From Caenorhabditis remanei (lineage: Eukaryota > Nematoda > Chromadorea > Rhabditida > Rhabditidae): DNA of 64,000 nt. The stretch is from the NCBI RefSeq assembly GCF_010183535.1, contig NC_071331.1, forward strand, positions 3,162,001 through 3,226,000. The letters are read 5' to 3'. Every line of letters begins with the position of its first letter. The stretch's first letter is position 1. Below the pieces are notes generated by a model. That model was given only the letters and a program-made list of their open reading frames with translations, ran no database searches and was not told where the DNA came from. Shown here one piece after another: positions 735 to 63,905 of the stretch. Position numbers and translations under genes: made by a program.

Positions 735-804
735 TTGTCGTATCCTAGGCCAGGACTGTCAGCCTCTCAGATTGGGATAATACATACATAGTTTTGTGAA
801 ACAG
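735..804 (-). ncRNA. Putative 21U-RNA (piRNA) locus
   Basis: CTGTTTCA on the - strand at 797-804. The nearest YRNT places the 5' T at 755, spacing 42 nt, at the long end of the range. Predicted 21-mer 735-755. Confidence 0.5.
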
Positions 805-842
805 TGCTTGCATACATTTGCTAAATAGTCTATTGCGAGAAG

Positions 843-910
843 GGTCTCACCATTAACTGTAAACTGTTGTAAAATAAGTCTTTCGCACACTCGATACACT
901 GATGAAACAG
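843..910 (-). ncRNA. Putative 21U-RNA (piRNA) locus
   Basis: CTGTTTCA at 903-910; YRNT T at 863, spacing 40; predicted 21-mer 843-863. Tandem with the locus ending at 804, same strand. Confidence 0.65.
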
Positions 911-1257
911 AATACAATCAAGAAATAGTGTTAGTTTGAAAATTGTTCTATTAAAACCGCAAAAATGAAGTTTCAATGATTTGCTTAAGACGGAGTGAAA
1001 TTCTTTGTGGAAGCTTCGAAACAAAAAATTGAAAACGCACAGTAGTGCGAGGCGTAAGTTCCTGCAACGAAAATATTTGAACTTTTTCCGAATTGCGTAG
1101 CGTGTGCGTCGCGGTTTTTATTAAAAGATACGGCAAATTCTATTTTGGCACCGTGACAACCGTTGCGCGTTAGAGAGCTTTTCCGCGATCCTCGCGCTGC
1201 TGTGACCGACAGACTAACTAGGGAAGGTCCTCGACTCGGTCTGGAGTTATAGTACTG

Positions 1258-1553: not shown

Positions 1554-1570
1554 ACGTCCCATTATTCCAG

Positions 1571-2024: not shown

Positions 2025-2091
2025 TTGTTTAAACCTCAGGAAGCACTGATTAAAAAATAAAAAATGTGGACTTAACAGTTCTCTGAAACAG
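2025..2091 (-). ncRNA. Putative 21U-RNA (piRNA) locus
   Basis: CTGTTTCA at 2084-2091; YRNT T at 2045, spacing 39; predicted 21-mer 2025-2045. Confidence 0.68.
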
Positions 2092-2533: not shown

Positions 2534-2601
2534 GATAATTGGCTCGTGACCGAAACGTTGACTATTTATTGACACTAACTTTAAACATGTCATTGAAACA
2601 G
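2534..2601 (-). ncRNA. Putative 21U-RNA (piRNA) locus
   Basis: CTGTTTCA at 2594-2601; YRNT T at 2554, spacing 40; predicted 21-mer 2534-2554. Confidence 0.66.
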
Positions 2602-3427: not shown

Positions 3428-3494
3428 AGAGCAGCAACGCCAAACCCAGTAGCGATTAAAATCTGAAAATCTGAAAATGATTATTTTGAAACAG
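3428..3494 (-). ncRNA. Putative 21U-RNA (piRNA) locus
   Basis: CTGTTTCA at 3487-3494; YRNT T at 3448, spacing 39; predicted 21-mer 3428-3448. Confidence 0.68.
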
Positions 3495-4938: not shown

Positions 4939-5006
4939 TTCAGATGTCAGAATCTAATAACAATGATAGTAGTCTGTTTGAGAGAAAAAGATCCCATTTG
5001 AAACAG
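4939..5006 (-). ncRNA. Putative 21U-RNA (piRNA) locus
   Basis: CTGTTTCA at 4999-5006; YRNT T at 4959, spacing 40 (another YRNT at 4962, spacing 37); predicted 21-mer 4939-4959. Confidence 0.64.
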
Positions 5007-5852: not shown

Positions 5853-5921
5853 ACCACGGTAATCCCTTTGTAACCAAAAATCACATAAAAGTGAGAATGA
5901 AATTAGGACTTTATGAAACAG
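5853..5921 (-). ncRNA. Putative 21U-RNA (piRNA) locus
   Basis: CTGTTTCA at 5914-5921; YRNT T at 5873, spacing 41; predicted 21-mer 5853-5873. Confidence 0.6.
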
Positions 5922-7145: not shown

Positions 7146-7212
7146 TAATGTCTTTTGATTTTCTAATCGATAATGTTTTCGATATTGAGAGAAACTAGAC
7201 CAATTGAAACAG
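7146..7212 (-). ncRNA. Putative 21U-RNA (piRNA) locus
   Basis: CTGTTTCA at 7205-7212; YRNT T at 7166, spacing 39; predicted 21-mer 7146-7166. Confidence 0.68.
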
Positions 7213-7537: not shown

Positions 7538-7603
7538 GTCAATATCATTTTACTGTCAATATCGATCTAACTTTTTTTGTTTCTTACGTCATTCCTGAAA
7601 CAG
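7538..7603 (-). ncRNA. Putative 21U-RNA (piRNA) locus
   Basis: CTGTTTCA at 7596-7603; YRNT T at 7558, spacing 38; predicted 21-mer 7538-7558. Confidence 0.65.
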
Positions 7604-7745: not shown

Positions 7746-7813
7746 CTGTTTCAGTGGCTCGTTATCAGAAAACCATTTTTCTTGAAACTCAATTTGTGTA
7801 AAATGTGTTTCTT
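7746..7813 (+). ncRNA. Putative 21U-RNA (piRNA) locus, duplicated pair member 1
   Basis: CTGTTTCA at 7746-7753; YRNT (CAAT) T at 7793, spacing 40; predicted 21-mer 7793-7813. The promoter and start region are repeated almost exactly at 8131, so the two loci are recent paralogues. Confidence 0.66.
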
Positions 7814-8130: not shown

Positions 8131-8200
8131 CTGTTTCAGTGGCGGCTCGTTATCAGTAAACCATTTTCTTGAAACTCAATTTGAGGTATGTATAAGCCAG
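8131..8200 (+). ncRNA. Putative 21U-RNA (piRNA) locus, duplicated pair member 2
   Basis: CTGTTTCA at 8131-8138; YRNT T at 8180, spacing 42, because this copy differs from the one at 7746 by small indels. The first bases of the two predicted 21-mers match (TTTG) and then diverge. Confidence 0.58.
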
Positions 8201-12211: not shown

Positions 12212-12277
12212 TAGAACTGACAACTCTTACGAATACAACATTCTATGCATTCTTCAAAACAGTTAGTTTTGAAACAG
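12212..12277 (-). ncRNA. Putative 21U-RNA (piRNA) locus
   Basis: CTGTTTCA at 12270-12277; YRNT T at 12232, spacing 38; predicted 21-mer 12212-12232. The octamer ends four bases before a transposon target duplication, so the insertion just missed the promoter core. Confidence 0.65.
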
Positions 12278-12288: not shown

Positions 12289-12955
12289 GGCTCTATTCCA
12301 GTTTAGATGTCCTTTGAAAACTTGAACGTCCCAAAAAACACTTAGACGTCCCTTAAAACACTCAGACGTCCCTTGAAACACTTAGACGTCCCTTGAAACA
12401 TTTAAACGTCCTTTCGGATCCCAAATATGTTCAAAAATGTTTAAACGTCCCAAAAAACATTTAGACGTCCCAAAATACGTTTAGACGTCCCATAAAATAT
12501 TGAGACGTCCCTTAAAATCCGGAAATTTGATTTTAAATAATTAGACGTCCCAAAAAACATTTAGACGTCCCAATAAACATTTAAACGTCCCAAAAAATGT
12601 TTAGACGTCCCTTCAATACTAAAAGCCACTGAAAATGTTCGAGGGACGTCTAAATAATTTTTGGGACGTTTAAATGTTTTTTGGGACGTCTAAATGTTTT
12701 GTTAGACGTCTAAATGTTTTTTGGGACGTTTAAAACTTCAGAACTATATTTTGGGATTTCAAGGGACGTCTATACATTTTATGGGACGTTTAAACGTTTT
12801 TTGGGACGTCTAAACTTTTGAAAGGACGTTTTAAAAAAATTAGAGTTTGAAAGGACGTTTAAGTGTTTTAAGGGACGTCTAAGTGTTTTAAGGGACGTTT
12901 AAGTGTTTTAAGGGACGTTTTAGTTTTTAAAGGACATCTAAACTGGAATAGAGCC
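12289..12955. mobile_element. Fold-back element made of 28 short GACGTCCC units, 8-bp target duplication
   Basis: The ends are GGCTCTATTCCAGTTTAGAT and its complement, identical for about 27 bp. The exact 8-bp direct repeat GATTGATA flanks both sides (12281-12288 and 12956-12963), which fits hAT-type transposition. The interior is almost wholly ~20-bp units of the form TTAGACGTCCCAAAAAACAT: by my count 14 in one orientation followed by 14 in the other, so the whole element can fold into one long hairpin with periodic GACGTC sites. It has no coding capacity. Confidence 0.92.
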
Positions 12956-18969: not shown

Positions 18970-19035
18970 CTGTTTCAGATGTATAGTTTCTTCTTCATAT
19001 ACATTAGCCTTCGTTTCTTCCAAACTGACAAAAAA
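18970..19035 (+). ncRNA. Putative 21U-RNA (piRNA) locus
   Basis: CTGTTTCA at 18970-18977; YRNT T at 19015, spacing 38; predicted 21-mer 19015-19035. Confidence 0.64.
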
Positions 19036-21729: not shown

Positions 21730-21795
21730 AAAATTACATTATCACTCTAATCAGCCCATTCAAATTCGCTAGTAGAAAAACACAATTTGAAACAG
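21730..21795 (-). ncRNA. Putative 21U-RNA (piRNA) locus
   Basis: CTGTTTCA at 21788-21795; YRNT T at 21750, spacing 38; predicted 21-mer 21730-21750. Confidence 0.64.
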
Positions 21796-22944: not shown

Positions 22945-23011
22945 CTGTTTCAGATGATTTGTTTCCACTTTTGTAATATGAAGTTCACGTTCCATTCTTA
23001 ATTGGGAAAAA
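22945..23011 (+). ncRNA. Putative 21U-RNA (piRNA) locus
   Basis: CTGTTTCA at 22945-22952; YRNT (CGTT) T at 22991, spacing 39; predicted 21-mer 22991-23011. Confidence 0.68.
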
Positions 23012-23623: not shown

Positions 23624-23691
23624 CTGTTTCAGTAATTAATTTTCAGAACAATTCTGTCTTTGATATTCAATACCCGTGACATACTACGGGC
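23624..23691 (+). ncRNA. Putative 21U-RNA (piRNA) locus at a MITE edge
   Basis: CTGTTTCA at 23624-23631; YRNT (CAAT) T at 23671, spacing 40; predicted 21-mer 23671-23691. Its 3' end runs into a repeat starting near 23680, so the last third of the RNA would be transposon sequence. Confidence 0.65.
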
Positions 23692-23937: not shown

Positions 23938-23944
23938 CCAATTT

Positions 23945-24011
23945 CTGTTTCAAGAGTTTTGTAACAAAGATAATCAACTTTAAGTAACATTACTATTTGA
24001 TTTTTGTGATT
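23945..24011 (+). ncRNA. Putative 21U-RNA (piRNA) locus
   Basis: CTGTTTCA at 23945-23952; YRNT (CATT) T at 23991, spacing 39; predicted 21-mer 23991-24011. It begins directly after the repeat that ends at 23937. Confidence 0.68.
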
Positions 24012-24129: not shown

Positions 24130-24196
24130 CTGTTTCACCCTCCAGTTATATAGAGAAGTCTTTTCAGTTTTATAATTTTTATTGACTATTCTTTCG
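24130..24196 (+). ncRNA. Putative 21U-RNA (piRNA) locus
   Basis: CTGTTTCA at 24130-24137; YRNT (TAAT) T at 24176, spacing 39; predicted 21-mer 24176-24196. Third + strand locus in 500 bp. Confidence 0.68.
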
Positions 24197-26099: not shown

Positions 26100-26790
26100 A
26101 ATAATAATAAATAATTTATCTATCAAAAAAAGAAGTTCCCTTTTTGAAAAATTCATGAAACATGGAAACAAACTACAGCCACCTTCTGAGAATCTAGAAT
26201 GCTATCTTGGATTAAATCGATGTTGTTCATTGCATTGAGTCCATCTGAAACAGTGAGACACTTAAAAAAAATATGAACTACTGTTCCAGTAGCATCAGAT
26301 GTTAGTTTCCCATGACGAGTGTTTGCTCACAATATAAATAAATAGAAATAGAACATTCCGATCATCACTCTATAAACAAGATTCTGGCATCGAAAAAATA
26401 ATTTTAATTTTCTTAATCCGCTACATCAAACACATCTTTTTTATTACAGTTTCAAGCTTCATAAGATAATAACTCCCCGACAGACATCCAATGATCCCAG
26501 ATTTTTAAAAGTTTGATTAATGAAAAAAGTTTTTTTGAATCCCAATCGTATTAAAAAAAGAAGGTACCATTTGAAAAGTGTCTGAAATAAGAAATCAACA
26601 AATTTACAATAATAATAACTGATATTTTCCTCTATGAATCTAGAATGTTTTTCTACTGGTCTATCAAATTGAATCGATGTTGCTCTTAACTTGGGATTTA
26701 TCTAAAACAATGAGGCATGTTTTTAAAAAACTACTGTATCAGTTGCATCAGATATTAGTTTCCCATGACGACTGTTTGCTAACGATGCTG
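26100..26790. repeat. Local direct duplication, about 230 bp, spaced ~450 bp
   Basis: 26100-26345 and about 26560-26790 share blocks such as AATCTAGAATG, AATCGATGTTG and 'TTAGTTTCCCATGACGA' in order. The first copy keeps an exact CTGTTTCA (minus, 26246-26253) with no well-spaced YRNT; in the second copy the octamer has decayed (TAAAACAA). This looks like a dead piRNA locus pair. Confidence 0.65.
26246..26253 (-). promoter_or_regulatory. Ruby-type octamer without a well-placed start
   Basis: Exact CTGTTTCA, but I find no YRNT with T 36-44 nt downstream. Probably a degraded locus or chance. Confidence 0.3.
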
Positions 26791-27182: not shown

Positions 27183-27248
27183 CTGTTTCAATTATATTTT
27201 AACACAGTTGTAGGTTTCTGGTAGCATTGTCTTTTTTCCCACCTTTAG
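27183..27248 (+). ncRNA. Putative 21U-RNA (piRNA) locus
   Basis: CTGTTTCA at 27183-27190; YRNT (CATT) T at 27228, spacing 38; predicted 21-mer 27228-27248. Confidence 0.65.
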
Positions 27249-30067: not shown

Positions 30068-30133
30068 CTGTTTCAGAGAAAAAGAATAAAAAAGCAAAAA
30101 TGAATCAGATGTTTGTATCTAGATTCTGATGTT
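30068..30133 (+). ncRNA. Putative 21U-RNA (piRNA) locus
   Basis: CTGTTTCA at 30068-30075; YRNT (TGTT) T at 30113, spacing 38; predicted 21-mer 30113-30133. Confidence 0.65.
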
Positions 30134-30168: not shown

Positions 30169-30237
30169 AAGTTGTTTTGATCTTTACCACTGATCTTTGC
30201 TTACATACATCTTCAAATTATATAGGGATTGAAACAG
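30169..30237 (-). ncRNA. Putative 21U-RNA (piRNA) locus
   Basis: CTGTTTCA at 30230-30237; YRNT T at 30189, spacing 41; predicted 21-mer 30169-30189. Convergent with the + strand locus at 30068. Confidence 0.6.
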
Positions 30238-30430: not shown

Positions 30431-30496
30431 ATAAAGAGAAATGCAGAAAAACTGGTTGTGGTGATCACTATGCATTATCTTTATTTCCTGAAACAG
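30431..30496 (-). ncRNA. Putative 21U-RNA (piRNA) locus
   Basis: CTGTTTCA at 30489-30496; YRNT T at 30451, spacing 38; predicted 21-mer 30431-30451. Confidence 0.65.
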
Positions 30497-34259: not shown

Positions 34260-34325
34260 AAAACCGAGTGAATCTTCCTAGCACTATGTTTCAACGTTTC
34301 AGGCTTTCTGTTATTTTTGAAACAG
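34260..34325 (-). ncRNA. Putative 21U-RNA (piRNA) locus
   Basis: CTGTTTCA at 34318-34325; YRNT T at 34280, spacing 38; predicted 21-mer 34260-34280. Confidence 0.65.
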
Positions 34326-35043: not shown

Positions 35044-35109
35044 TTTCACAATTTGCCGCGCATAACACTCTGCAAACTACTGTCCAATTATATCAGGTCG
35101 TTGAAACAG
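35044..35109 (-). ncRNA. Putative 21U-RNA (piRNA) locus
   Basis: CTGTTTCA at 35102-35109; YRNT T at 35064, spacing 38; predicted 21-mer 35044-35064. In the duplicate copy near 36650 the octamer reads GTAGTTTCAG-like and is lost. Confidence 0.65.
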
Positions 35110-35668: not shown

Positions 35669-35732
35669 GGGAAAACACTTTTCACATAATTGAATGTCAT
35701 CAAATAACCTTTATTTCGAAAATTTGAAACAG
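35669..35732 (-). ncRNA. Possible 21U-RNA locus, short spacing
   Basis: CTGTTTCA at 35725-35732; the nearest YRNT T is at 35689, spacing only 36. Confidence 0.35.
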
Positions 35733-36335: not shown

Positions 36336-36401
36336 CTGTTTCATTAGGTTTTAAAATATCAACCCGCTTGTTGTTTTCGATTGTAGGTATAAACCAAAAT
36401 A
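36336..36401 (+). ncRNA. Putative 21U-RNA (piRNA) locus
   Basis: CTGTTTCA at 36336-36343; YRNT (CGAT) T at 36381, spacing 38; predicted 21-mer 36381-36401. Confidence 0.65.
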
Positions 36402-41603: not shown

Positions 41604-41683
41604 ATTTTCACAATGTATCCAATAATCCGTCGATATTTATAGCACAATAGATGATGATGGTATTATAGCACAGGTAAGAATAT

Positions 41684-43287: not shown

Positions 43288-43355
43288 AATTCACCATGCA
43301 ACAATGTACCAAGTGTTCCAAACTTACAGACACATTAAAAAGGTTTTTGAAACAG
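43288..43355 (-). ncRNA. Putative 21U-RNA (piRNA) locus, duplicated pair member 1
   Basis: CTGTTTCA at 43348-43355; YRNT T at 43308, spacing 40; predicted 21-mer 43288-43308. Confidence 0.66.
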
Positions 43356-44037: not shown

Positions 44038-44105
44038 TTGATTTTTTTCACAATACCATCGAGTGTTGCGAACTGGCACACACATTAAAAAAGTTTTTGA
44101 AACAG
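44038..44105 (-). ncRNA. Putative 21U-RNA (piRNA) locus, duplicated pair member 2
   Basis: CTGTTTCA at 44098-44105; YRNT T at 44058, spacing 40; predicted 21-mer 44038-44058. Paralogue of the locus at 43288-43355; the spacing is unchanged while the 21-mers differ. Confidence 0.66.
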
Positions 44106-44513: not shown

Positions 44514-44580
44514 CTGTTTCAAATCTAACACTAATTCTTATTTGGTTTGAGTTGAACACTCTCCATAATGTATTTTTTCG
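44514..44580 (+). ncRNA. Putative 21U-RNA (piRNA) locus
   Basis: CTGTTTCA at 44514-44521; YRNT (CACT) T at 44560, spacing 39; predicted 21-mer 44560-44580. Confidence 0.68.
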
Positions 44581-46372: not shown

Positions 46373-46440
46373 TTGGTGTTTTGCGACTTATCAACATTCA
46401 AAAATCAACTAAAAGTACATATAAGCCGTTTTTGAAACAG
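46373..46440 (-). ncRNA. Putative 21U-RNA (piRNA) locus in sru intron, duplicated pair member 1
   Basis: CTGTTTCA at 46433-46440; YRNT T at 46393, spacing 40; predicted 21-mer 46373-46393. Confidence 0.66.
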
Positions 46441-46969: not shown

Positions 46970-47036
46970 TCCGACACCAAAGCAGAATAATTGCATTCAA
47001 AATATTAACTAGAATTATATGCCTTTTTTGAAACAG
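46970..47036 (-). ncRNA. Putative 21U-RNA (piRNA) locus in sru intron, duplicated pair member 2
   Basis: CTGTTTCA at 47029-47036; YRNT T at 46990, spacing 39; predicted 21-mer 46970-46990. Confidence 0.68.
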
Positions 47037-47532: not shown

Positions 47533-47598
47533 CTTAAAAGTTTACTTATGTTATCGGTGCAGATGAGTAACAGTTTATAAGTGGACCTCATGAAACAG
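47533..47598 (-). ncRNA. Putative 21U-RNA (piRNA) locus in sru intron
   Basis: CTGTTTCA at 47591-47598; YRNT T at 47553, spacing 38; predicted 21-mer 47533-47553. Confidence 0.65.
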
Positions 47599-48635
47599 CT
47601 TTCGTTTTCCACTAACTACTTTTCCGCGTTTAACAGGTATTTCTTATTCCAGTTTATTAACATACATACTAAAACAGTATTCTAAATCTTTTCAATTTTT
47701 TCACGTTTTCAAAATACCCCTGAACTGATCACAAATCCAGCATAACCTAATTTCTATTTAAATTCAATTTGCAGATAAACTCAATTCTCCTGCGCGTCAG
47801 TGTGCCTCTCATCTGGCTCTATCCCCTCTGTTTCACATTTTTCCTTATTCCAGCCGTTGGTGTTTGCCGTCAAATTAGTAGTCCATATCCGTTGGGCGCG
47901 ATTCATATTTAATATGCAAATTCTGCGTTTGGGGTAAGATTTTACATGAAGAAGTAAACATTTTAAAATTTATCGACGAATGCTTTGTGATCTCGTTGAA
48001 ACCGGTGATGTTTGATAACTGTGATCATAGAAAGTGCTTCAAACCTAGCAATTTTTTTAGTAAAGTTATAATTACCACTTTCAAAAAATTTTGCAAATAA
48101 AAAACAACTCAAAGAACAAATTGAGTCACCGCGCGCCAAAGACACCCCAGCCCCCAAATTTTCACTATTTCCAGCTCCGAAACTCATATTTCTACCTCTA
48201 CAACACTATTGCATGGCTCACACTCGCAATTCTGGCCAATATTCTTCTATTCTTTAAAGTTGCAAAGGCCAGAGCGCAACTCATCAGTTTCCAAAAAAGT
48301 GCAGTGTCTTACAAAGCGGAATTATCGATTACAATTACTACTGTAGTTATGATACTTTTCTATGTTATAAATGGAGGTTTTATAGTGAGTTTGTTACTTG
48401 ATAACAGAAATTATATTATCTACATTTTTATTTTCAGATAATTTATGTCCTGTACTATGGTACAAGTTCCTATTTCTCGTTTTTGGTTATCGTGAAAGCG
48501 TTTGCAAACGACGCTCAGACTTGTGTTGTCCCGTGGATATTCTATTTGACTCATCCGGTATTCAAGAAGAAAGCAATCAGTGGCGACTTGGTATTTTCTA
48601 CGAGTTCATTCAAGAGAAGGATTAATAATAGTTGA

Positions 48636-49284: not shown

Positions 49285-49351
49285 CTGTTTCAGTGAATTT
49301 ATATTACTTACTATCTTTTTGTTTCCACAGTAATTTTTTAACAACAATACA
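49285..49351 (+). ncRNA. Putative 21U-RNA (piRNA) locus
   Basis: CTGTTTCA at 49285-49292; YRNT (CAGT) T at 49331, spacing 39; predicted 21-mer 49331-49351. Confidence 0.68.
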
Positions 49352-49940: not shown

Positions 49941-50312
49941 TACTTGCAAGATTCCGGGCCGGGCCGAGAAAGTGCCGGCCCGGCCCGGCCCGGTCGGCCC
50001 GGATTTGAATTTTTGAATTTTTTTAACTAGAATTTTTATTTCAATAATTTTTTTTCAAAAATTTTCCAAATTTTTTTCCCAAGTATATCTAAAAAAAATG
50101 CGTTTAAATTGAGATATGAGACCCCAAAATTCCAATTTTCCGAAAAAATCGGAAAAAATTCGAAAAAAAATTTTGAAATTCTTTAGTACTGAAAATCCGG
50201 GCCGAAACGGGCCGGGCCGGGCTCGGGCCGGGCCGCGGGCCGGGCTGGGCCGGAGAATTTCTGATTTCGGCCGGGCCCGGCCCGGCCCGGCCCGGCCCGT
50301 TGCAACTCTGCA
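49941..50312. mobile_element. GGGCCG-family palindromic repeat
   Basis: The left end CATACTTGCAAG leads to GGGCCGGGCC arrays; the right arm is the complement and ends CCCGTTGCAA. An AT-rich core lies between. The GC arms are long runs of GGCCC steps. Confidence 0.8.
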
Positions 50313-50919: not shown

Positions 50920-52393
50920 TTAATAGTTGGAGTTTTGACTGAAATCGAGAGTCACATTATTATTATCCCACGATGACTTATTGGATGGTCCGGTAGGCCG
51001 AGTGATTCCTTGGTGTCCCGCTTGTTCCATATTGTGGTGGACGGTTCTGCATGGAATTGGTTGCGATTGCAATGAAATGAGCAAATTATTGGTAGCCATG
51101 GATGCTTGATCAAGTGGCCTAAAATCATTCATCGAGTACTGAGGTGCTCCGTTGCTCAGTTTTTCTGTGGAAAAAGCAAAAGTAGGAACACCGGGAGTCA
51201 CGTTGTAGTTTGAAAAATTTGGAGTATAATGTGCGACTGTGGAGGTTGAGGGTCCACGAGTCAACAATAATTCCAGATTTGAGTTACCATTACTTTGAGG
51301 AACACCCATTGTGGATACGGTAGCCTGATAACACTCCGAATCCTCCTGCCTTCTCTTTGCAACTATTTTTGAGTCACGTGACGATGCCATTGTGTTGTTC
51401 GCCGATAAGATTCCAGAATCGTTTTCTGATTCCTTGGAACCGAAAACTAGCGATGATCGTTTCCTATTCAAATTTTTCTTATAATCAACTCTCGCGAATT
51501 TGTTTTTTGCAGTTTTCCAGTTTACCACAGCGGTATTCTGAAAAGAAAATGCTATGCGATTTAGCAAGAGAACAAAAAAATTATACCTTCACACAAGTGA
51601 CTGCAACAAACTGTGTTTTCTCGATTTCGAATGATTTGAGGAACTCTCTAGCAATTTCAGATTTCTGGGAATAGATACTGAGGACTGGAATATAGCGGCA
51701 GCGGGTGTTGATAAGAAGTCCTTCCTGTCTTTTCTCCTCAGTCTCTGTCACTATTCTGGTTCTTTTCTTTTCAGAATAGATTTTAGCTCTCTCGAAAGAC
51801 ACTTCATCCTCCATCCACACAAATCCTTCCTTAGTATCCAAAAATATCTCATTGCTCTCCCAAGACGCCTTCACCTTAATTTTACTTTCTTCCCAACCCC
51901 CCTCAACGCGTTTCAAAATATTCGTGTTGAGTCGCTTGAGTTTTAGGCCGAATGAGTAATTTTCGTGTGTATTGAGACCAGTGACCAGGTAGTTGAGTTG
52001 TGGGGAGAGCATTCTGTAAAAGGATAATTAAGAAAAAGATAATTATGAAAAAAGATAATTATAGGAAAATTACCTTCCAACTGATAAAACTAGCATCTCG
52101 TTTCCCAGCTCATGCAGTTCCTTCCACTCTTTTTCATCTTGCAATGTTACTCTGATATTATCGGGATTGTTCAAAACCGTTTGCGGTTGAGGCGGCAGTT
52201 GTGGTCTCTGGAATTCATGGGCTGGTTCATATTGGCTCCAATCCTGATTGTGAGATGTTGCATATTGATGTGTATTCTTGAAGCTATTGTGGGGGTATCC
52301 ATATTGACCGTTATTCCACATCACTTGTTGATTCATCCGCATTTGATCCGTCAAGCCTTCTGATGGGTACTGAGGAAATGGATTGGGGTACAT
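50920..52393 (-). CDS. Divergent T-box transcription factor
   Basis: DNA-binding regulator of the T-box family, highly diverged as in the expanded Caenorhabditis tbx genes. Three exons: 52393-52074, 52013-51587, 51537-50920; in phase, 454 aa. A Gln/Pro/Asn-rich N-terminus (1-75) precedes the T-box (about 80-265): VTLQDEKEWKELHELGNEML, then VGRMLSPQLNYLVTGL, SFERAKIYS, and the C-terminal block EIAREFLKSFEIEKTQFVAV followed by VNWKTAKNKFAR, which aligns with the standard 'FIAVTAYQN...NPFA' end. The rest is a Ser/Asn/Gln-rich tail, possibly a transcription effector region. ATG 52393 directly follows TTTATTTTCAGAA, which looks like a trans-splice acceptor and supports this start. No breaks seen. 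Confidence 0.85.
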
Positions 52394-52407
52394 TTCTGAA
52401 AATAAAG

Positions 52408-52475
52408 GATAGGCGTAAAAACAAATTACCGAAAATCGGTTTCAATATAAACATAAAGAAATAAAAATGAAACAG
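52408..52475 (-). ncRNA. Putative 21U-RNA (piRNA) locus upstream of the T-box gene
   Basis: CTGTTTCA at 52468-52475; YRNT T at 52428, spacing 40; predicted 21-mer 52408-52428. It sits 15-80 bp upstream of the T-box ATG on the same strand, so it may share open chromatin with that promoter. Confidence 0.62.
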
Positions 52476-52839
52476 AGGTAATGCGAAAATGGAATCTAAC
52501 CAAAGTACAAATTGAAATGAAGGGAGACCTGAGTCACCATCCACTACAACAAAAAAAGAGCTAATGACAAGAAAACCGTCTGACCAGCAGGATTAGGATG
52601 TGTTGTGGGAGGAGCCCACCTACCTATGACACGCCCACAATATTTAAGACAAGATGGATACTGAAAGATAGCAATGAATTATGGATACTGTATCTTGACT
52701 AAACAGCTAACAGTATACCCTAGAGTATACCCGATACCTTAGTAAATGACAAGTGGAAAAAATTAAGTACTCTGGCAAGTATACTGTATTCTTGTATTTT
52801 TGTGTTACGGGTCATAAAAATCATACGTATCTTAAATAA

Positions 52840-52906
52840 GGAAAGAGGAGAGTTTATGAATTGTATCTCAAAAATAGCTGTAAGATATCTGGAAATTCTG
52901 AAACAG
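52840..52906 (-). ncRNA. Putative 21U-RNA (piRNA) locus
   Basis: CTGTTTCA at 52899-52906; YRNT T at 52860, spacing 39; predicted 21-mer 52840-52860. Confidence 0.68.
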
Positions 52907-53090
52907 GAACCAGTATTTTTTGAATCAGGGCGGGAATTTGCACGCTGGTATGTATCACGGAACTGACTTCAATCTGCTGAGAAAAAAATTGTTCCTGTAG
53001 CTGATGGTGGGTAAAAGTGTGTTGCTAAATGATAGAAAACAGTGTAAAACATTAAAAATAAATGTTTTCCATGAAAAGAGTGTAGAAGAA

Positions 53091-53297
53091 TTAGTTACTT
53101 TTTGAGATAATGGAGTGCCAGCAGATATAATTTTTTTTCTGTTTCAGGAAACTCTCGATTATCTCGCAATGTACAAAATATTGATTTTTCTCCGCAATCT
53201 TCATCACTATTTCGTTCGCAACATCCCTCTTTTCAAAATATTCTTTTAGCCCGAAAATCTCACCCCAAAAATGATGCACGTAATTTTGTCCAGCCTA
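53091..53297 (-). pseudogene. Orphan exon-like open frame
   Basis: After TTTTCTTCGTAG (near 53297) an open - strand frame reads AGQNYVHHFWGEIFGLKEYF and on for about 60 residues (EKRDVANEIVMKIAEKNQYF) to a stop at 53091. Composition looks coding, but no partner exon was found and a + strand piRNA locus overlaps its end. Probably a relic of a larger gene; family unknown. Confidence 0.35.
53139..53205 (+). ncRNA. Putative 21U-RNA (piRNA) locus
   Basis: CTGTTTCA at 53139-53146; YRNT (TGAT) T at 53185, spacing 39; predicted 21-mer 53185-53205. Confidence 0.68.
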
Positions 53298-53338
53298 CGA
53301 AGAAAATTTATTGAATTCTCACATCAGAGAAAAAATGA

Positions 53339-53403
53339 CTGTTTCGCAATGATCTTTTTTTTTGAACTGAAAATTTATTCAATGGGCGCTCCTATGTAGC
53401 AAT
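53339..53403 (+). ncRNA. Putative 21U-RNA locus, variant motif
   Basis: CTGTTTCG at 53339-53346; YRNT T at 53383, spacing 37. Confidence 0.33.
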
Positions 53404-53505
53404 AATTTTCAATAAAATCTTATTAATGAAACGTGGACAAAGTTAAAAAAGAAATTCTATCAGTATCTGTGCAAAATGTAATCATGAACTCAATACTCGA
53501 TTTTG

Positions 53506-53573
53506 AAAAAAAAAATTTAATAAAAATCGTTCACGCGATGTAACATTCAGTTGAAACTGCTTTCCTGAAACAG
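53506..53573 (-). ncRNA. Putative 21U-RNA (piRNA) locus
   Basis: CTGTTTCA at 53566-53573; YRNT T at 53526, spacing 40; predicted 21-mer 53506-53526. Confidence 0.66.
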
Positions 53574-54224
53574 TACACTCGTGGTAGAGACTACAGAAAG
53601 TTGTTTTTCTATGTTTCAAAAACTTAATTTCCAATCACATCTATGAAAGCTGTTTTGCATACAGTTCCGTTATTCCTGGCATTGCAGGAGATCTAATTTA
53701 TTATGACTCAAATAGGAATGTGGTTGTTGTAGTGAGTACATCAGGTAGGAGTAAATCAGGTTCTGACGTTTTTATTGAAAGTTCTTCAAGAACTTAAAAG
53801 TGATATTACTAATTTATCTTTTAAACCGTTTCGCAAACTTTACAATTGAAATTTGATAGTGAATTGGAGTAATGAATAGTTTTCTTTTATTTTCTTACTA
53901 CATAAATGAATAGTTCTGTCGGTCCGCCCGACGCTTCTCTCCAAATAACTTTTTTCTCTCTGAACCGTTTCAAAACATATTTGGGGGTATACACATGAAC
54001 CTCCGTGCGCTTCAGTTTTTTGGACCGTGGGTACCAGATTACTGTAGGATTACTGTAGCTACCGTAATGGAATAAATGGAAAATAACTTCAAACTGAATG
54101 CGAGGAAAGACTCGGGTGGTAACAACCAGAAAATTCTAGAAACTTTGAGAAATGATTATGAATTTTGGCGATATTTCAAATTGTTAGCAGGAATTCAAAT
54201 TTTCGAGCTTCGGCGTATTTTTTT

Positions 54225-54287
54225 CTGTTTCAAATTCAATATTTTGCAAGTTTTACATTTAACCAATCTTCTACACACGTTTACCAA
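54225..54287 (+). ncRNA. Possible 21U-RNA locus, short spacing
   Basis: CTGTTTCA at 54225-54232; the nearest YRNT T is 54267, spacing 35, below the usual range. Confidence 0.3.
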
Positions 54288-54827
54288 AGTTTTGTTCTTT
54301 ATCATTACAGTTCCAGTTTCATTGCCATCGTTCATTTATTTTGAGGTAAATTAGTCCGAAAATCCTGAAAACGAATCAAATATTTCAATGTTTCAAATAT
54401 ACTATTCCTTTTGATAGAATTAATAGAGACAATAACTTTTCTAGTCGAAAAAAAAGAAAACAATAGTAACGAAACTGATTTGAAGCTAGCTTTTTACAAT
54501 TGAAACCATGATACAGTTTTAAAAACTTATCTTAGGTTAGGCTATAGTGAACCATACCGGTCTTCAATTTTGTGTTCAACTAGGAACATCAGAGACGGAT
54601 TTTACAAGTTATTTACATTTCTCATATCTCAAAAGGCATCACAGTATACCTAACTTCCTAAGTGAAAGTATACCTGATTTTTAATAACGTGGACTGTATC
54701 CTTGTAAAATATAGGTGATTATAACATTTATTGTTAGACAGCAACAACTATCCGGAATAGTAAAATAGAGCTTACTGGAAGATATCTGGAACTTTTGGGA
54801 CAGCAATATTTTGTATCACCAGTTGGG

Positions 54828-55450
54828 CATACTTGCAACGGGCCGGGCCAATTTGAGAATTTTCAACGGCCCGGCCCGGCCCGGTCGGCCCGGGTCACAG
54901 TACAAAAATTTGAAAATTTGAATTTTTTGAAAATTTTTTTGATTTTTTCGCAAAAAAGTCGAATTTTCGACTATGTTTTTACATATCGATAAAACTCAAG
55001 TGTACATAGGATTTTTGACTATTTTTTATGAAAATTTCAAAAAATTTCGAAAAATTTTGTGAAAAAGTTGTGCTCATTTTTTGACTCCGGGCCGACCGGG
55101 CCGGGCCGGGCCGGCAACTTTCTCTACCGGCCCGGCCCGGCCCGGCCCGGTCGGCCCGGGTCACAGTACAAAAATTTGAAAATTTGAATTTTTTTGAAAA
55201 TTTTTTGTTTTTTTCGCAAAAAAGTCGAATTTTCGACTATGTTTTTACATATCGATAAAACTCAAGTTTACATAGGATTTTTGACTATTTTTGACGAAAA
55301 TTTCAAAAAATTTCGAAAAATTTTGTGAAAAAGTTGTGCTCATTTTTTGACTCCGGGCCGACCGGGCCGGGCCGGGCCGGCAACTTTCTCTACCGGCCCG
55401 GCCCGGCCCGGCCCGGGCCGGGCCGACGGGCCGATATTTTGCAAGTATGC
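54828..55450. mobile_element. GGGCCG-family repeat with internal tandem duplication
   Basis: The ends are CATACTTGCAACGGGCCGG and GGGCCGATATTTTGCAAGTATG. Inside, a unit of about 246 bp (CCCGGGTCACAGTACAAAAA ... CTCCGGGCCGACCGGGCCGG) occurs twice in tandem, nearly identical (about 54877-55120 and 55121-55365). This gives four GC-rich blocks spaced by AT-rich DNA. Confidence 0.85.
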
Positions 55451-56737: not shown

Positions 56738-56804
56738 TTTCTATGCCCGCAAGATGAAACACTTTGTTACATTCTAGAAGCTTAACATATTTTTCTTGAA
56801 ACAG
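56738..56804 (-). ncRNA. Putative 21U-RNA (piRNA) locus
   Basis: CTGTTTCA at 56797-56804; YRNT T at 56758, spacing 39; predicted 21-mer 56738-56758. Confidence 0.68.
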
Positions 56805-57897: not shown

Positions 57898-57964
57898 AGA
57901 ATTGCTTCAAAAGTTTAATTAAAAATTCACAAACTGCTCAAATTTTGACGGTACTCTGAAACAG
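57898..57964 (-). ncRNA. Putative 21U-RNA (piRNA) locus
   Basis: CTGTTTCA at 57957-57964; YRNT T at 57918, spacing 39; predicted 21-mer 57898-57918. Confidence 0.68.
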
Positions 57965-58263: not shown

Positions 58264-58275
58264 TAAATCTACAAA

Positions 58276-61200
58276 TTACAATTTATCAAGATAATTATCA
58301 AGGGCTGGAATTCCCTCTTTGAGACCTTTTCGTTTTCTTATATCCGTCACAATTTGATTCGGCTTGCTACCAATTTCCAGAGGGTCACCGGGTAGTACCT
58401 GCCAATGATCGAACACACATTGCGGGAATGCTTGTCCACCGGTGTTGGATCGGAGATCTGCTGTGAATCCGAAGGATTCGTTGACAGGTAGATATGCTTT
58501 GACAATGAACATCGGAGTTCCGATGACCTGAGATTCTTCGATGACAAGGCCACGTCGCTTGTTGATGACACCGTAGATACCTGAAAAAAAATCATAAGAA
58601 GTAATTTACTAGAGTGACCATTAAGAATTACCTCCTATCACCGGCTCCGGACACTGAATCTCCACCAGGTACACCGGCTCAAGGACACGTGGCTCTGCAG
58701 TCAACTGTGATGCATAGAACACTCTCCTTGCCGCAGGAATAATCTGAGCCCCTCCTCGATGCATAGAATCTGAGTGGACTGTGACGTCATGGATGTTGAA
58801 CCTCACATCTCTCAAAGTCTCCTCACAAAGGACACCTTCTCTAGTCGCCCAACTGAATCCGGCCATCATTGGATCCTTGATATCATTCAAATATTGTACT
58901 CCTTTGGTCACATCGAACAGAAGATTGGGGCCAGTGCCATCTGGACCGAAGCACCATATCCTCCGGGCTTCCGTAACGTCATAGTTGTACTTTTCTGATA
59001 GAGTTTTCGCGCGAGATTTGAATTCATCACGGGCGTTGATGACTCCTCCCTCGATATCATCTGCGAGACCATCTGGCATTGGTTGGGCGGAGCAGTGAAG
59101 TCGATTCAGCTTATTTGCAGACTTCGCAAGACAAATCTGACTAGACTCCGCTTGAACAGTCTCCCGATAAGAAACTACTGGATCCGAAATCTTCAGTGGG
59201 ATACAAGCGTGGTCCTCCTCCAAATCTTTCAAACAAATCTCCAAATGGAGCTCCCCGGCTCCAGCGATAATGTGCTCACCGGAAGATTCAAAGGTGCATT
59301 GGACCATTGGATCCGACTTGGCCAGCCGCTTGAGTCCCTCCACAAGTTTCGGTAGATCAGCCGGGTTCTTAGCTTCCACAGCGACACGGACCACCGGGGA
59401 TACTGAGAATTTCATGACTCGTAAGTTATGGGCGTCCTTGAATGTTGTGATGGTACCACCTTTCACAAGGTACTGATCAACTCCGACTAGTCCAGCAATA
59501 TTTCCACACGGGATATCCTCAATACACTCCACATACTTTCCCATCATGATAATCGTTCGTTGGATAGTCTTCTCATACAAGTCGTCTTTCTTCCCTGGCA
59601 CGTAGTTCGGTCCCTGTATCCTCGCCTTCATTCCAGTCGCCACTTTTCCAGAGAACACTCTTCCAAACGCATAGAATCTTCCTTTGTCAGAAGTCGGAAC
59701 CATTTTCGAGATGTACATCATAAGGGGACCATTAGGATCGCAGTTCTTGATTGCCAAGGCCGCATCGTCGTCGTGTGGCCCTTCATATAACATTTCCATT
59801 CGATAATTCTGCGCGGCGACGGGTGATGGAAGATGGAACGCTATCATCTGGAGCATGGTGTCACCTGCTGGTAGCCATCGTCGCATGAAGGCTTTCAAGA
59901 GTGGTTTGCCTTCCAGATCCTCCTCATCGTAGTCCAGCTTGATGGAAAGTTTTTTCACGAGCTCCTGGATCTTTTCCTTCTTTACACTCATGATAGCATC
60001 AAAGACCATGAGTATTGGTTCAAGCAAAAATTGATTGAATCCTCGTTTGCTATCATCGGTTTTGGTATAGCTCCACTTTTTTGTGGTAGGGTTGAAGAAT
60101 CGGTCACCCCACAGGTTTTTCATCAGTTTGTCGACTTGAAAACTTCTGATTTGCAGTTTCACGGGTACCAGAAGTATGTCGGATAGATTTTGGCGCATTT
60201 CTGGCAGTAGTGATAACAGCATACTTGCAAACCGGGCCGGCGTGTAACTTTCTTAGAACTAAATATTATGAGCTGTAAATATACCAAAATGTAGATCTCG
60301 GCGAGTTGTATTTCCTTGACCTACTACGGGCTGGATGGTGTATCGTTAATAGCCGAGAAAATGTTGCAAAACCGAAAAACCGGAAAATCCATTCCAGCTT
60401 GGTCCGCGGCACATTATCCCAAACTACAGTGACCAACTTACAGTGACCACACTGACACTCAATCCTGTTTGTCAGTGTAACTTGGTCACTGTAGTTTTGT
60501 CAGTGTAACTTGGTCATTGTAGTTTTGGTTAATGCTCCGCCAGCCGGACTAGAATGACTTTTTGTCCATTTTTGCGTTTTATCACCCTTTTTCCCGGCCC
60601 GCGGCACAAAAGAATAGCCATCCGGCCCGTAGTTGGTCACTAACATAAAACTCGCCGAGATCTGCATTTTTGTATATTTTCCATTTCATAAAAGCGAGTT
60701 AGGCTCCGGTTTGCCAGAATTTTTTTGGTTAGATTTTGACTTATTTCACAGATTACTGATAACCCTACCTGAACTCCAAACTTGTCAGCGTACATCTCCG
60801 AGAACTGCTTCAACGTGAACGCCCATCCATGGAGACCAGATCCAAACCCAACATTTCCAATCGATGGATCTACCATAACTGGGCCCATTGGGCCATCATC
60901 ATCCAAATAGGTGGCGATGATTACATTGACATTCTCCACAATCCGTCGGAACGTTTGATACATCTCCTCGGCTCCGAGCTGCAATTCCTGAAGAGCTCGA
61001 TCCATCTTGTTCATGAACAATATCGGTTTAATCCTCTCCGCAATCGCTTGCCGTAAAACTGTTTCCGTCTGAACACAAACTCCGGATACACAGTCCACCA
61101 CTACCATAGCTCCGTCGGTGACTCGAAGTGCCGCAGTGACTTCAGATGAGAAGTCGACGTGGCCTGGAAAGTCGATGAGGTTGATCAGGAAGCCGTTGAA

Positions 61201-63021
61201 CTTTTCGGGTTTTCCGTTGACTTCAATGGTTTCACATTGGTTTTCCCCTTGGAAAAAGTGTAGGTCCTTCTTGTCAAGCTCGAAGAATAGGGAGATGGCG
61301 CTGGAAGTATATGGAAATATAAGATTATGGGTGAATCAAAACGCACAAGTTATTATTGAAAGTTCCATCACCTAATCTTATATAATAATTGTGCTACAGT
61401 ATAATTTTGCATTGAAATTATTTATAAGTCATTAAATTTGTCTTTATACTTTCAGGCTGCCCCAACTCACGTCGACTTGATCGTAATACACCTCTCCTGC
61501 TCGTCCTTCCTTGTATCCGTAAATCTCGCTTCACCGGCTTTCGACTGCGCGATAATACCCGCCTTGGACACCAGCGAATCCGTCAAAGTAGACTTTCCAT
61601 GGTCCACATGGGCGATGACGGACATGTTACGGATATTCCGTCTCCGGTCCATCAGGGAGCGTATCTCATCGGCGGTGAAGTTGACCTGGAAATGGGGAAT
61701 AGGAAAATGTGAGGTAAATACCGTAAAAATTGTATGATAATCATGCCGTTATATTTTTAACCAGAAAAATTTTTGGAAAATTGTTGCCTAAGATGAAGTA
61801 ATGTACAAAACGCGCTATTCATAAGTGGAATAAATGAAAATGAGAAAATTTAAATTTACCTACATAGTTTTTTTCTGTTCTTATCGGTGGTTACCAGACA
61901 ACATATATTGCAAGACGTGTTGTAACTTCTAATGAATCGTTCAAAAAATGGGAAAGTAAACAAAAATGTTTTGGAAATCGCCGAAAATCTCGCCCTTTTC
62001 CTGCTGCATCGCTACTGAAAAACTGAAAAAAATTAATGTTTCTCTTTCTCCATTAAAATAAGTGTTTTAAAGATTCAGTTTAATGATACGAAAGGAAGCT
62101 CAAAAACCAACAAAAAAAGTTTTCAAATAATTTTTGGATTTTTTTTTTAATTTTGAAAGCATGTCACAATGTCAGCACGATGAAGAAATTATGCAAATTG
62201 TGAAATTCTTTTGTTTAGCTAGAATAAATTCCGAAACTATCTCAAACGGAGCAACTCAACGTCGAACATGACACTGTTTCTGGTATTCTTGATACAGTAA
62301 TTCACGAAACTAGTACTAATTAAAACAGTATGTTCACAACGAAGCTCAACCTACCTCTGCACACCAGCTCTATTGACAACGGGGGCTACAAATTGTCGTG
62401 ACGGTGAAATTAGAGCTCTTACTGGAGAGACCTAGCGAAATAAAAAATGGCTCCCGAGTAAATAAAATGTTGGAAACAGTAAAACACTAAATTGCTTGAA
62501 AACCACGTTTTTCAATCCTAATGGTCTTGATAGAAACTTTTGAGACTAAAAGAATAGACTGGTATCATTGCGCTAGAATTACCTATGCGCTGGTCTAAAA
62601 ATGACAGAAAGGCGTTTTCAGCGAAAATCAAATTCTCCGTGAAAAATCTTTTTCAGTTCTTCAGAAGAGTTAACACAAAAGGAAAACACAAACAAAAAAT
62701 TTAACAGTTTTCGGAAATTTTTTTTAATTTTGAAAGACTGTCTTATTTCCCCACACTCCGCGCTAATATGCTCCTTTCAAAAAAGGTGTCAACTACAAAA
62801 ATAAAACTATTGGTGTATTCTAGTCGCCGTAGGAAAACTGGAAAAATAGGAAAATTATTATTTCCGTGTCAAGATTAGCAAAAAAATTAAAACAGGGGAA
62901 CGTTCAGGATTGAAACCTCACCCCAGAAAAATTATAAATTTATTGTTTGAAACAGGGGTTATTTTCCAAAAATTTTGCAATGCCCATTCTGTCTTCAATA
63001 GAATATTTAAGCACTCACCAT
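58276..63021 (-). CDS. eef-2: Translation elongation factor 2 (eEF2), possible paralogue with a damaged splice site
   Basis: GTPase that drives ribosomal translocation in the cytosol. Exons: 63021-63019 (ATG only), 61685-61471, 61300-60769, 60135-58632, 58580-58276; if joined in frame they give 852 aa, normal eEF2 length. Seen: P-loop AHVDHGKST (26-34), [18 protein letters not shown] switch region with the Thr eEF2-kinase site, [26 protein letters not shown], and the diphthamide loop [15 protein letters not shown], where the His is kept but the usual GGG reads GGA. It ends NYLDKL. Oddity: intron 3's end reads TTTTCAAGTCGAC. An in-frame join needs exon 4 to start at 60135, yet the only AG there puts it at 60134, one base short. 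Intron 3 also carries a fold-back repeat. Sequence drift in this very conserved protein suggests a duplicate. Confidence 0.8.
60221..60712. mobile_element. Diverged CCTACTACGGGCCGG fold-back in eEF2 intron 3
   Basis: The left end CATACTTGCAAACCGGGCCG and inner blocks (CCTACTACGGGCTGGATG; CATCCGGCCCGTAGTTGG) match the element at 57310-57688. The centre has been expanded by a repeat of TGTCAGTGTAACTTGGTCA (two direct copies plus an inverted one, about 60420-60535). It occupies most of the 633-bp intron. Confidence 0.8.
62274..62340 (+). ncRNA. Putative 21U-RNA locus, variant motif, in eEF2 intron 1
   Basis: CTGTTTCT at 62274-62281; YRNT (TAAT) T at 62320, spacing 39. Confidence 0.42.
62414..62479 (-). 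ncRNA. Putative 21U-RNA locus, variant motif, in eEF2 intron 1
   Basis: CTGTTTCC at 62472-62479; YRNT T at 62434, spacing 38. Confidence 0.36.
62889..62955 (-). ncRNA. Putative 21U-RNA (piRNA) locus in eEF2 intron 1
   Basis: CTGTTTCA at 62948-62955; YRNT T at 62909, spacing 39; predicted 21-mer 62889-62909. Same strand as the host gene, about 65 bp inside its first intron. Confidence 0.66.
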
Positions 63022-63837
63022 GTTCCCTTCTCTTGCAGCTTTTTTTTTTCAGCTACACACGGGAAATAGGTCGGTGAGACAAGCGGTGAGACACAGACTG
63101 AATTCGAATCAAATCGTCAGACACTGAAAATTAAAACCAAAAACAATTTTTCTAAGACAACAAAAAAAACTACTCCTATTATCAAAAAATTTCTCTCAAT
63201 AAATATGTTTTCCTTCCCCGATACACATATGAAATATTGCGAAATTTTGCATGCGAGGTCGCAAGGGGGGAACAGAATAACAAGAGGGTGCAACATTTCG
63301 TCACTGACCAAACAACTAGTTTATTTATTTTCAGAGCGGGGAGAAAGGTGTCTACGGCATCTGGCGCGTCTTGGACGCGCGGCCAGAAGGGGGGGGGGGG
63401 GCAGAGTGATGTTTGCTTGGTGTGTATTTTGTGTTTGTTTTTTGCTGTCAAGGTTGGCTGGCGTGTCTTTGACGCGAGAGATATTTTCTGATGAATGAGT
63501 TTAAAAACATTATATACGAATGGTGAAGCTCAATTAATATAGGTTTTGTTTTGAACTACATAACATAACACGTGGGAAACTGTAACCGAGAGAAGCAATC
63601 TGACAATATCGACGAAGAATACAAGCAGAATTATATGACGAATGCGGATATGTTTTTATCCTGAAACTTTAAAAAATTTAAGTGATTTTAGAACACCTCA
63701 CCTATGCGTAAATAAACAAGATGTCATTGATAATGTGAATTGTAACTAAAGTTCTTGCAACAGGAAAAATCATTGATAAAGGTAAAAAATTGAGATTAAA
63801 ATCTTAGTAAGCTCTTAAATTCGAATTTAAAAAAGAT
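63022..63837 (-). promoter_or_regulatory. Upstream region of the eEF2 gene
   Basis: Presumed 5' UTR and promoter. It holds a GC-richer stretch around 63335-63405, including a G12 run. No clear TATA box or trans-splice acceptor was identified, and no other gene is visible. Confidence 0.35.
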
Positions 63838-63905
63838 TTAATTAAGCCAGGAAACTATTGAAGAAGAAATTAATTAATGGACAATAAACTTTCATGTCGA
63901 AACAG
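63837..63905 (-). ncRNA. Putative 21U-RNA locus, variant motif
   Basis: CTGTTTCG at 63898-63905; YRNT T at 63857, spacing 41. Confidence 0.38.

Follow-up and report, generated by a model that had tools for sequence, protein, structure and literature searches.

Type I 21U-RNA (piRNA) clusters have been described in two relatives of Caenorhabditis remanei. In C. elegans, as the available text of two papers has it, these clusters combine a CTGTTTCA core, a YRNT initiator, an A/T-rich spacer of about 35-42 nt and clustering on chromosome IV (PMC3597512, PMC6317315), all of which recur in the DNA analyzed here. In C. briggsae, chromosomes I and IV carry clusters that hold 17,751 of 25,883 21U loci; the core is the same there, it is surrounded by A/T-rich motifs, and sequence change is rapid (PMC9683057). 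C. remanei 21U-RNAs have already been profiled and are expressed, according to the available part of a review (PMC6468775). The cluster type is therefore known, with clusters described in C. elegans and C. briggsae and with C. remanei known to make 21U-RNAs. The origin of new worm piRNA genes was raised as a question in a 2022 paper, which allows for a mechanism yet to be discovered (PMC9683057).

We analyzed 64 kb of C. remanei PX506 chromosome IV (positions 3,162,001-3,226,000; the window). Whereas the C. briggsae loci were defined by PRG-1 reads, those in the window are predicted from sequence alone.

Results

Abundance of the core octamer

The octamer CTGTTTCA occurs 43 times in the window, 15 times on the plus and 28 times on the minus strand (Table 1), a skew that is not significant (p = 0.066). 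None of 100 dinucleotide shuffles reached this number (expectation 4.03, SD 2.13, maximum 11), a second-order Markov model predicts 6.4 occurrences, and among the 840 permutations of its letters the real octamer is the commonest (permutation mean 2.6). Simple repeats such as CGGGCCGG are more over-represented in the window than CTGTTTCA. A preliminary description had counted 42 octamers outside coding sequence by hand (28 minus, 14 plus) against 2-3 expected by chance; its minus-strand count and the excess itself hold, its plus-strand count is one below ours, and the chance figure was too low. Its picture of a dense cluster across the whole window is supported as to the cluster. Coverage is uneven, with core-free gaps at 36.3-43.3 kb (7.0 kb long, with a retrotransposon frame inside), 12.3-19.0 kb (6.7 kb) and 58.0-62.9 kb (5.0 kb, with elongation-factor-like frames inside).

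None of the 43 cores falls inside the 13 stop-to-stop frames of at least 150 aa in the window; coding overlap was judged from such long open frames. An Rfam scan of the window at gathering score gave two matches, both to tRNA models, and neither an snRNA nor any other family. In this the window differs from snRNA promoters with a SNAPc-binding element.

Initiator, spacer and number of loci

A YRNT with its T 38-42 nt past the last base of the octamer accompanies 39 of the 43 sites (binomial p = 4e-15), as against 32.9% of all window positions and 34% (729/2131) of permuted octamers. The peak is narrow, with 11, 14 and 10 YRNTs at 38, 39 and 40 nt and 1-6 at positions 34-37 and 41-44. A number of 39, there out of 42 sites, and the chance rate of about a third had both been given in the preliminary description, and our counts reproduce them. 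The same is true of its claim of at least 15 further sites with CTGTTTC plus another base and similar spacing: the window has 29 sites of CTGTTTC followed by C, G or T, and 16 of them show the spacing, where about 9.5 would by chance.

For perfect cores, the spacing yields (39 - 0.33 x 43)/(1 - 0.33) = 37 real loci. Density yields 43 minus about 5 expected, with the leftmost 512 kb of chromosome I as background (40 octamers, hand-counted). The two estimates agree on about 37-38 real perfect-core loci. Cores with one mismatch have the YRNT spacing in 103 of 181 cases (p = 3e-11), an excess of 65, and are estimated to add about that many loci.

Position +19 is A or T at all 43 window sites (p = 1e-8) and at 36 of 38 sites in the chromosome IV cluster samples, and the A/T block is in register with the core (0.99 bit), not with the U (at most 0.40 bit). 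The spacer is A/T-rich, with a GC content of 0.295 vs 0.354 for the whole window. A low-melting pausing signature downstream, which one paper describes as weak in species with clusters (PMC6436959), did not appear as a clear GC drop at the 39 window loci or at 29 sample loci, GC at the former being 0.34 in the body, 0.32 from +21 to +40 and 0.35 from +41 to +60.

Table 1. Predicted 21U loci and remaining CTGTTTCA octamers in the window. Coordinates are window positions; U+n is counted from the predicted 5' U.
Feature	Position	Strand	Core	21U	Remark
predicted 21U locus	735..804	-	797-804	735-755	
predicted 21U locus	843..910	-	903-910	843-863	
predicted 21U locus	2025..2091	-	2084-2091	2025-2045	
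predicted 21U locus	2534..2601	-	2594-2601	2534-2554	
predicted 21U locus	3428..3494	-	3487-3494	3428-3448	
predicted 21U locus	4939..5006	-	4999-5006	4939-4959	
predicted 21U locus	5853..5921	-	5914-5921	5853-5873	
predicted 21U locus	7146..7212	-	7205-7212	7146-7166	
predicted 21U locus	7538..7603	-	7596-7603	7538-7558	one copy's homology stops at U+5
predicted 21U locus	7746..7813	+	7746-7753	7793-7813	two copies stop at U+3; third has diverged body
predicted 21U locus	8131..8200	+	8131-8138	8180-8200	body 20/21 identical in copy L049 (counter-example)
predicted 21U locus	12212..12277	-	12270-12277	12212-12232	
predicted 21U locus	18970..19035	+	18970-18977	19015-19035	
predicted 21U locus	21730..21795	-	21788-21795	21730-21750	copy family, middle variable
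predicted 21U locus	22945..23011	+	22945-22952	22991-23011	inverted partner of 21730..21795
predicted 21U locus	23624..23691	+	23624-23631	23671-23691	body within end of dispersed repeat
predicted 21U locus	23945..24011	+	23945-23952	23991-24011	
predicted 21U locus	24130..24196	+	24130-24137	24176-24196	
predicted 21U locus	27183..27248	+	27183-27190	27228-27248	
predicted 21U locus	30068..30133	+	30068-30075	30113-30133	
predicted 21U locus	30169..30237	-	30230-30237	30169-30189	
predicted 21U locus	30431..30496	-	30489-30496	30431-30451	
predicted 21U locus	34260..34325	-	34318-34325	34260-34280	
predicted 21U locus	35044..35109	-	35102-35109	35044-35064	homology stops at U+1, two places
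predicted 21U locus	36336..36401	+	36336-36343	36381-36401	homology stops at U+1, two places; copy L051 without core and body
predicted 21U locus	43288..43355	-	43348-43355	43288-43308	body diverged in L036 and L037
predicted 21U locus	44038..44105	-	44098-44105	44038-44058	homology stops at U
predicted 21U locus	44514..44580	+	44514-44521	44560-44580	homology stops at U, one place; L036 keeps body
predicted 21U locus	46373..46440	-	46433-46440	46373-46393	
predicted 21U locus	46970..47036	-	47029-47036	46970-46990	
predicted 21U locus	47533..47598	-	47591-47598	47533-47553	
predicted 21U locus	49285..49351	+	49285-49292	49331-49351	
predicted 21U locus	52408..52475	-	52468-52475	52408-52428	
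predicted 21U locus	52840..52906	-	52899-52906	52840-52860	
predicted 21U locus	53139..53205	+	53139-53146	53185-53205	three diverged copies stop at U or U+1
predicted 21U locus	53506..53573	-	53566-53573	53506-53526	
predicted 21U locus	56738..56804	-	56797-56804	56738-56758	
predicted 21U locus	57898..57964	-	57957-57964	57898-57918	
predicted 21U locus	62889..62955	-	62948-62955	62889-62909	
CTGTTTCA without YRNT at 38-42 nt	26246..26253	-			
CTGTTTCA without YRNT at 38-42 nt	35725..35732	-			
CTGTTTCA without YRNT at 38-42 nt	47828..47835	+			
CTGTTTCA without YRNT at 38-42 nt	54225..54232	+			

Distribution over the genome

Ten 10-kb samples (100 kb) taken from 1.5-13.2 Mb of chromosome IV contain 41 octamers, of which 30 have YRNT, as against 4 octamers, one with YRNT, in five 8-kb samples (40 kb) off chromosome IV. 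Density and spacing equal to background, which the preliminary description had named as evidence against a cluster, were not found in these samples (43 octamers in the 64 kb of the window, 4 in 40 kb off chromosome IV). The octamer is concentrated in chromosome IV, a statement whose scope off this chromosome is small samples and which leaves room for other clusters. In contrast to the two 3-Mb blocks of C. elegans, the octamer in C. remanei is dense in samples over approximately 1.5-13 Mb, with low values at 4.1 Mb (L012, no octamer) and 11.9 Mb (L018, one octamer).

The octamer-richest sample, L027 at 23.6 Mb, was rejected as piRNA evidence, as its 21 octamers lie in a palindromic A/T repeat and 10 of the 21 have YRNT. 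This shows that octamer density alone can mislead; the genome-wide count of 19,000 is likewise inflated by L027. The A/T-rich palindromic family at this place carries TTTTTACTGTTTCA many times. In a sample at 19.7 Mb (L024), six of seven octamers have YRNT, and a TTACTGTTTCAAG context is common to part of them.

Duplicated copies and the ends of homology

The window lies partly within segmentally amplified blocks of chromosome IV, the copies of which are 71-100% identical. Amplified copies are located on this chromosome near 1.02, 3.04-3.06, 3.12-3.13, 3.67-3.69, 4.13-4.22 and 4.55-4.68 Mb. The predicted body of 735..804 lies in repeated DNA, since positions 1-782 match a site on chromosome II at 99% identity. 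Among 143 distinct alignment ends at 27 loci (excluding rows from other chromosomes or dispersed repeats, self matches, the 100% copy at 3,132,065 and contig C56), seven, from six loci, fall at U to U+5 with the promoter on the kept side, where 0.60 would be expected. This number was matched by 1 of 20,000 rotations, a P value that is optimistic because the range was picked after the breaks at 7746, 36336 and 53139 had been seen. A wider, 20-nt range contains 11 ends vs 4.15 expected (109 of 20,000 rotations), and one-mismatch sites have 4 ends at U to U+5 vs 0.94 expected (P = 0.02). In the held-out locus L010, perfect cores have one end at U to U+5 vs 0.25 expected, which is not significant (P = 0.22), and five within 20 nt vs 1.71 expected (P = 0.063); one-mismatch cores there have none at U to U+5 and none within 20 nt.

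At 53139, three copies share the upstream stretch at 79-96% identity, in two cases over 950-990 nt, and their homology ends at U or U+1; at 7746, one copy is 91% identical over 150 nt and stops at U+3. Similarity returns downstream of the body at 43288..43355, 7746 and 22945. Identity in the body is below that of the flanks (Fisher p < 0.05) in five of nine pairs with fetched copies, representing four loci (43288..43355 twice, 7746, 22945 and 53139), and not significantly so in the other four (8131/L049, 44514/L036, 21730..21795/L043 and 21730..21795/L044). The lowest 21-nt identity window starts at most 21 nt from the U in one of the nine (22945, U+16), the others being alignment edges. On both counts, the idea that conservation is invariably lowest in the body was rejected. 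Over all 17 pairs, mean identity is 0.61 in the body and 0.65 in the upstream flank; eight pairs within one locus are too diverged to discriminate. In several duplicated copies, the promoter is kept and the copies diverge from the 5' U on, at some loci but not at all of them.

Discussion

The motif, its spacing, the A/T block and regional clustering are all present in the window. We consider it very probable (roughly 0.94) that the window belongs to the type I 21U-RNA cluster of C. remanei chromosome IV. Each real locus would then be a Pol II gene of its own. The same reading in the preliminary description is thus supported at the level of sequence by core, spacing, A/T spacer, chromosome IV clustering and absence from long frames. 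That homology ends cluster at the predicted U speaks for this identity independently of motif counts, and the four octamers that lack YRNT at 38-42 nt, the missing downstream GC drop, the octamer-rich repeat of L027 and the low counts of L012 and L018 within the dense range speak against it. The octamer could instead be part of a dispersed repeat or of simple A/T sequence, considering the abundance of TTTTTACTGTTTCA in the palindromic A/T family at 23.6 Mb and the fact that other repeats head the list of over-represented octamers in the window. We regard this as extremely improbable: when the 43 sites were paired over -60 to +75, just six pairs matched, so their flanks are mostly unrelated, a single core of 43 touches any of the five mapped dispersed repeats, and the initiator spacing, found at 39 of 43 sites in the window vs 10 of 21 in the L027 repeat, disfavors it as well. 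Real transcription-factor sites with another role, for example forkhead sites, which resemble TGTTTC, combined with YRNT as a generic Pol II initiator, are a very improbable explanation too. In vitro binding of forkhead proteins to a CTGTTTCA probe has been reported (PMC3597512), but that paper, in its available part, is itself about 21U promoters, and forkhead sites call for no initiator at a set distance of 38-40 nt and no enrichment on chromosome IV.

By analogy with other species, the predicted 21U-RNAs would be transcribed, processed and loaded on PRG-1. The SNAPc-derived USTC complex (PRDE-1, SNPC-4, TOFU-4 and TOFU-5) would be recruited by the Ruby core CTGTTTCA, which has the A/T block at a fixed +18/+19 from its C. 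Transcription by Pol II would begin at the YR that precedes the T by two nt, this T being some 39 nt beyond the core. The short capped RNA would then be trimmed to a 21-nt RNA with 5' U and loaded on PRG-1. Segmental duplication, which is evident in the sequence, accounts for part of the growth of the cluster.

The breaks at the U suggest that promoters are kept while RNA bodies turn over. Tentatively, and at somewhat less than even odds, new piRNA genes arise by promoter copying with payload exchange, the DNA from the U onward being replaced or scrambled; recombination junctions, insertions (including dispersed repeats) and rapid indels are conceivable routes. It is also possible, if short of probable, that nothing has been replaced, and that purifying selection acts on promoter and initiator while the body and the remainder are neutral, so that alignments of old copies end where constraint ends. 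Such constraint accounts for the breaks in copies of 71-75% identity (alignment rows 1059-1561, 264-634 and 1009-1583), and piRNA sequences are said to face little selection (PMC9683057). However, neutral divergence as small as that of the 79-96% copies at 53139 and the 91% copy at 7746 cannot abolish homology at a single base, and the return of similarity past the body at 43288..43355, 7746 and 22945 also argues against this reading.

The cluster would add dozens of RNA genes of a known kind in an outcrossing species. The trace of turnover matters more than the cluster itself, as a lead on the origin of new worm piRNA genes. Because blocks of 71-100% identity pair the same promoter with different payloads, this origin can be addressed with existing assemblies and small-RNA data. 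If payload exchange does take place, one promoter could give rise to many unrelated 21U-RNAs, and the repertoire would be renewed without new promoters.

Results

The Ruby core octamer of predicted type I 21U-RNA loci, CTGTTTCA, occurs 43 times in the window (15 on the plus and 28 on the minus strand), against a mean of 4.03 in shuffled sequence, with none of 100 shuffles as high, and its count ranks first among the 840 permutations of its own letters. At 39 of the 43 sites the initiator YRNT, whose T is the predicted 5' U, has this T 38-42 nt past the octamer (background 32.9%, permuted octamers 34%); when the 5-nt test window is moved elsewhere, the mean is 14.9 and the maximum 25. The preliminary description, which had put the octamer far above chance and the initiator at most sites against about one third by chance, is borne out on both points. 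YRNT also accompanies 103 of 181 one-mismatch cores (excess about 65) and, in weak excess (p 0.005), 334 of 904 two-mismatch cores.

The promoter has further preferences. Position +19 from the C of the core is A/T in 43/43 window sites (p 1e-8) and in 36/38 sites of chromosome IV cluster samples versus 6/8 in low-density samples; the figures for +18 are 39/43, 32/38 and 2/8. The A/T block is in register with the core (0.99 bit), not with the U (at most 0.40 bit). T is preferred at -3 to -1 and at +16/+17.

The window (C4:3,162,001-3,226,000) sits on chromosome IV, in the left arm, whose end is at 8.6 Mb (PMC10461856, table). The genome of 130 Mb contains 19,000 octamers versus 6,781 of the reversed form. 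Density and spacing exceed the sampled genomic background: there are 6.7 octamers per 10 kb in the window versus 0.8 over the leftmost 512 kb of chromosome I (40 by hand count), and the 39/43 sites with YRNT compare with 1 of 4 in five 8-kb samples off chromosome IV. Twenty 10-kb samples of chromosome IV hold 72 octamers, 46 with YRNT. Ten of these, at 1.5-13.2 Mb, account for 41, of which 30 have YRNT; two of these samples hold just 0 and 1. The sample at 19.7 Mb has 7 (6 with YRNT), that at 23.6 Mb (L027, C4:23600001-23610000) contains a repeat with 21 octamers, 10 of which have YRNT, and the other eight outside 1.5-13.2 Mb have 3 in total, none with YRNT. Many of the L027 copies lie in its first 3.1 kb, several as closely spaced inverted pairs flanked by TTTTTACTGTTTCA as their context; this repeat thus imitates the Ruby core.

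Pieces of the window recur on chromosome IV at 71-100% identity (about 1.02, 3.04-3.06, 3.12-3.13, 3.67-3.69, 4.13-4.22 and 4.55-4.68 Mb). C4:3132065-3134265 is 100% identical to window 52200-54400, and contig C56 likewise at 99-100%; each of the two may reflect a recent duplication or a duplication in the assembly.

Several copies lose homology at the predicted U, the start of the predicted 21-nt RNA (the body). At locus 53139, three diverged copies align up to query position 986-987, the U being 986, and in a fetched copy core, spacer and initiator are highly identical before identity is lost at U+1. Homology of two copies of 7746 ends at U+3; a third has an identity of 0.49 in the body versus 0.92 in the flanks. 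Two copies of 43355 have body identities of 0.67 and 0.70 (flanks 0.94 and 0.95). At 36336, two copies end at U+1 and three at U-14 to U-18, and a fetched copy lacks core and body between closely matching flanks. There are counter-examples, however: 8131 and 44514 each have a fetched copy in which the body is kept at 0.95, and many alignments between copies continue across a body. In the copy of 8131 (L049), the upstream part matches 7746 at 91%, while body and downstream part match 8131; by its sequence it looks like a chimera.

The end-point test drew on six queries and 98 rows on chromosome IV, and it counted 143 distinct ends around 27 perfect-core loci that have YRNT. Between U and U+5, on the side where homology covers the promoter, 7 ends fall at 6 loci versus 0.60 expected, and 1 of 20,000 rotations is as high; the opposite side has 1 end versus 0.57 expected. 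Because copies have a common history, the sample size is six loci, not the number of rows. For one-mismatch loci (four queries), 4 ends fall within U to U+5 (0.94 expected, P 0.019) and 14 within 20 nt (6.3 expected, P 0.006). The held-out stretch L010 has an excess in the same direction that is not significant.

Repeats reach some bodies. The predicted body 735-755 of locus 804 lies in window 1-782, which is 99% identical to C2:17002415-17003195 on chromosome II, and this match stops between core and U. The predicted body of locus 23624, 23671-23691, falls within the terminal part of a dispersed repeat. This repeat (23666-23945, about 275 nt, many copies on all chromosomes) begins 5 nt ahead of that locus's predicted U and extends to the core of locus 23945, so that a 21U-RNA from 23624 would consist of repeat sequence.

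The retrotransposon-like frames occupy the longest gap between Ruby cores, and CCGG-type octamers are the most over-represented octamers of the window.

Loci discussed and other features of the window
Feature	Position	Strand	Remarks
21U-RNA locus 804 (predicted)	735-804	-	
21U-RNA locus 7746 (predicted)	7746-7813	+	
21U-RNA locus 36336 (predicted)	36336-36401	+	
21U-RNA locus 43355 (predicted)	43288-43355	-	
21U-RNA locus 53139 (predicted)	53139-53205	+	
Non-LTR retrotransposon-like frames	37668-42229	-	reverse transcriptase and endonuclease domains, 1009-aa open frame
Elongation factor G/EFL1-like GTPase frame	58624-61335	-	Pfam
Sru chemoreceptor frame	45540-46100	+	Pfam
Phytanoyl-CoA dioxygenase frame	28360-28908	-	Pfam
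tRNA-Asp (GTC) prediction	28372-28443	+	
tRNA-Asp (GTC) prediction	29787-29855	-	low Rfam score 33, cutoff 29; overlaps no other call
Tandem and inverted short repeats	12303-12935, 15915-17120, 50197-50299, 54867-55425		ACGTCCC, GGGCACCCGA, CCGGG units

Discussion

Because its register is to the core and not to the U, the A/T block at +18/+19 may extend the site recognised at the core, as it lies about one helical turn further downstream. The first 21U paper reportedly described a 34-nt large motif. In C. briggsae promoters, A/T-rich motifs of unknown function surround the core (PMC9683057), and PMC6317315 and PMC11262695 implicate TBP-1 in the transcription of worm piRNAs.

In C. elegans, a 5' C in the core favours male expression (PMC3597512). 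Window sites of the form NTGTTTCA have YRNT in 39/43 cases when they start with C, 17/29 with A, 5/9 with T and 4/8 with G. Given this dominance of C-start sites, most recognisable promoters of the window would be male-type, provided that C. remanei follows the same rule.

Published work already covers the clusters, their motif and initiator, USTC, precursors made by Pol II and rapid change of sequence (PMC6436959, PMC9683057, PMC3597512, PMC6468775, PMC6317315, PMC11262695). Copies with promoter kept and body changed were not found in titles and abstract openings, mostly open-access, on C. remanei piRNA clusters and the duplication or birth of worm piRNA genes, which does not establish their absence from print.

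The breaks at the U probably mix two processes. In old copies, the alignment probably stops where promoter constraint stops, and in young copies whose flanks match over long stretches, a change of structure probably begins at or near the RNA start. Possible causes are recombination between promoters serving as homology, insertion of repeats, and breaks at paused polymerase.
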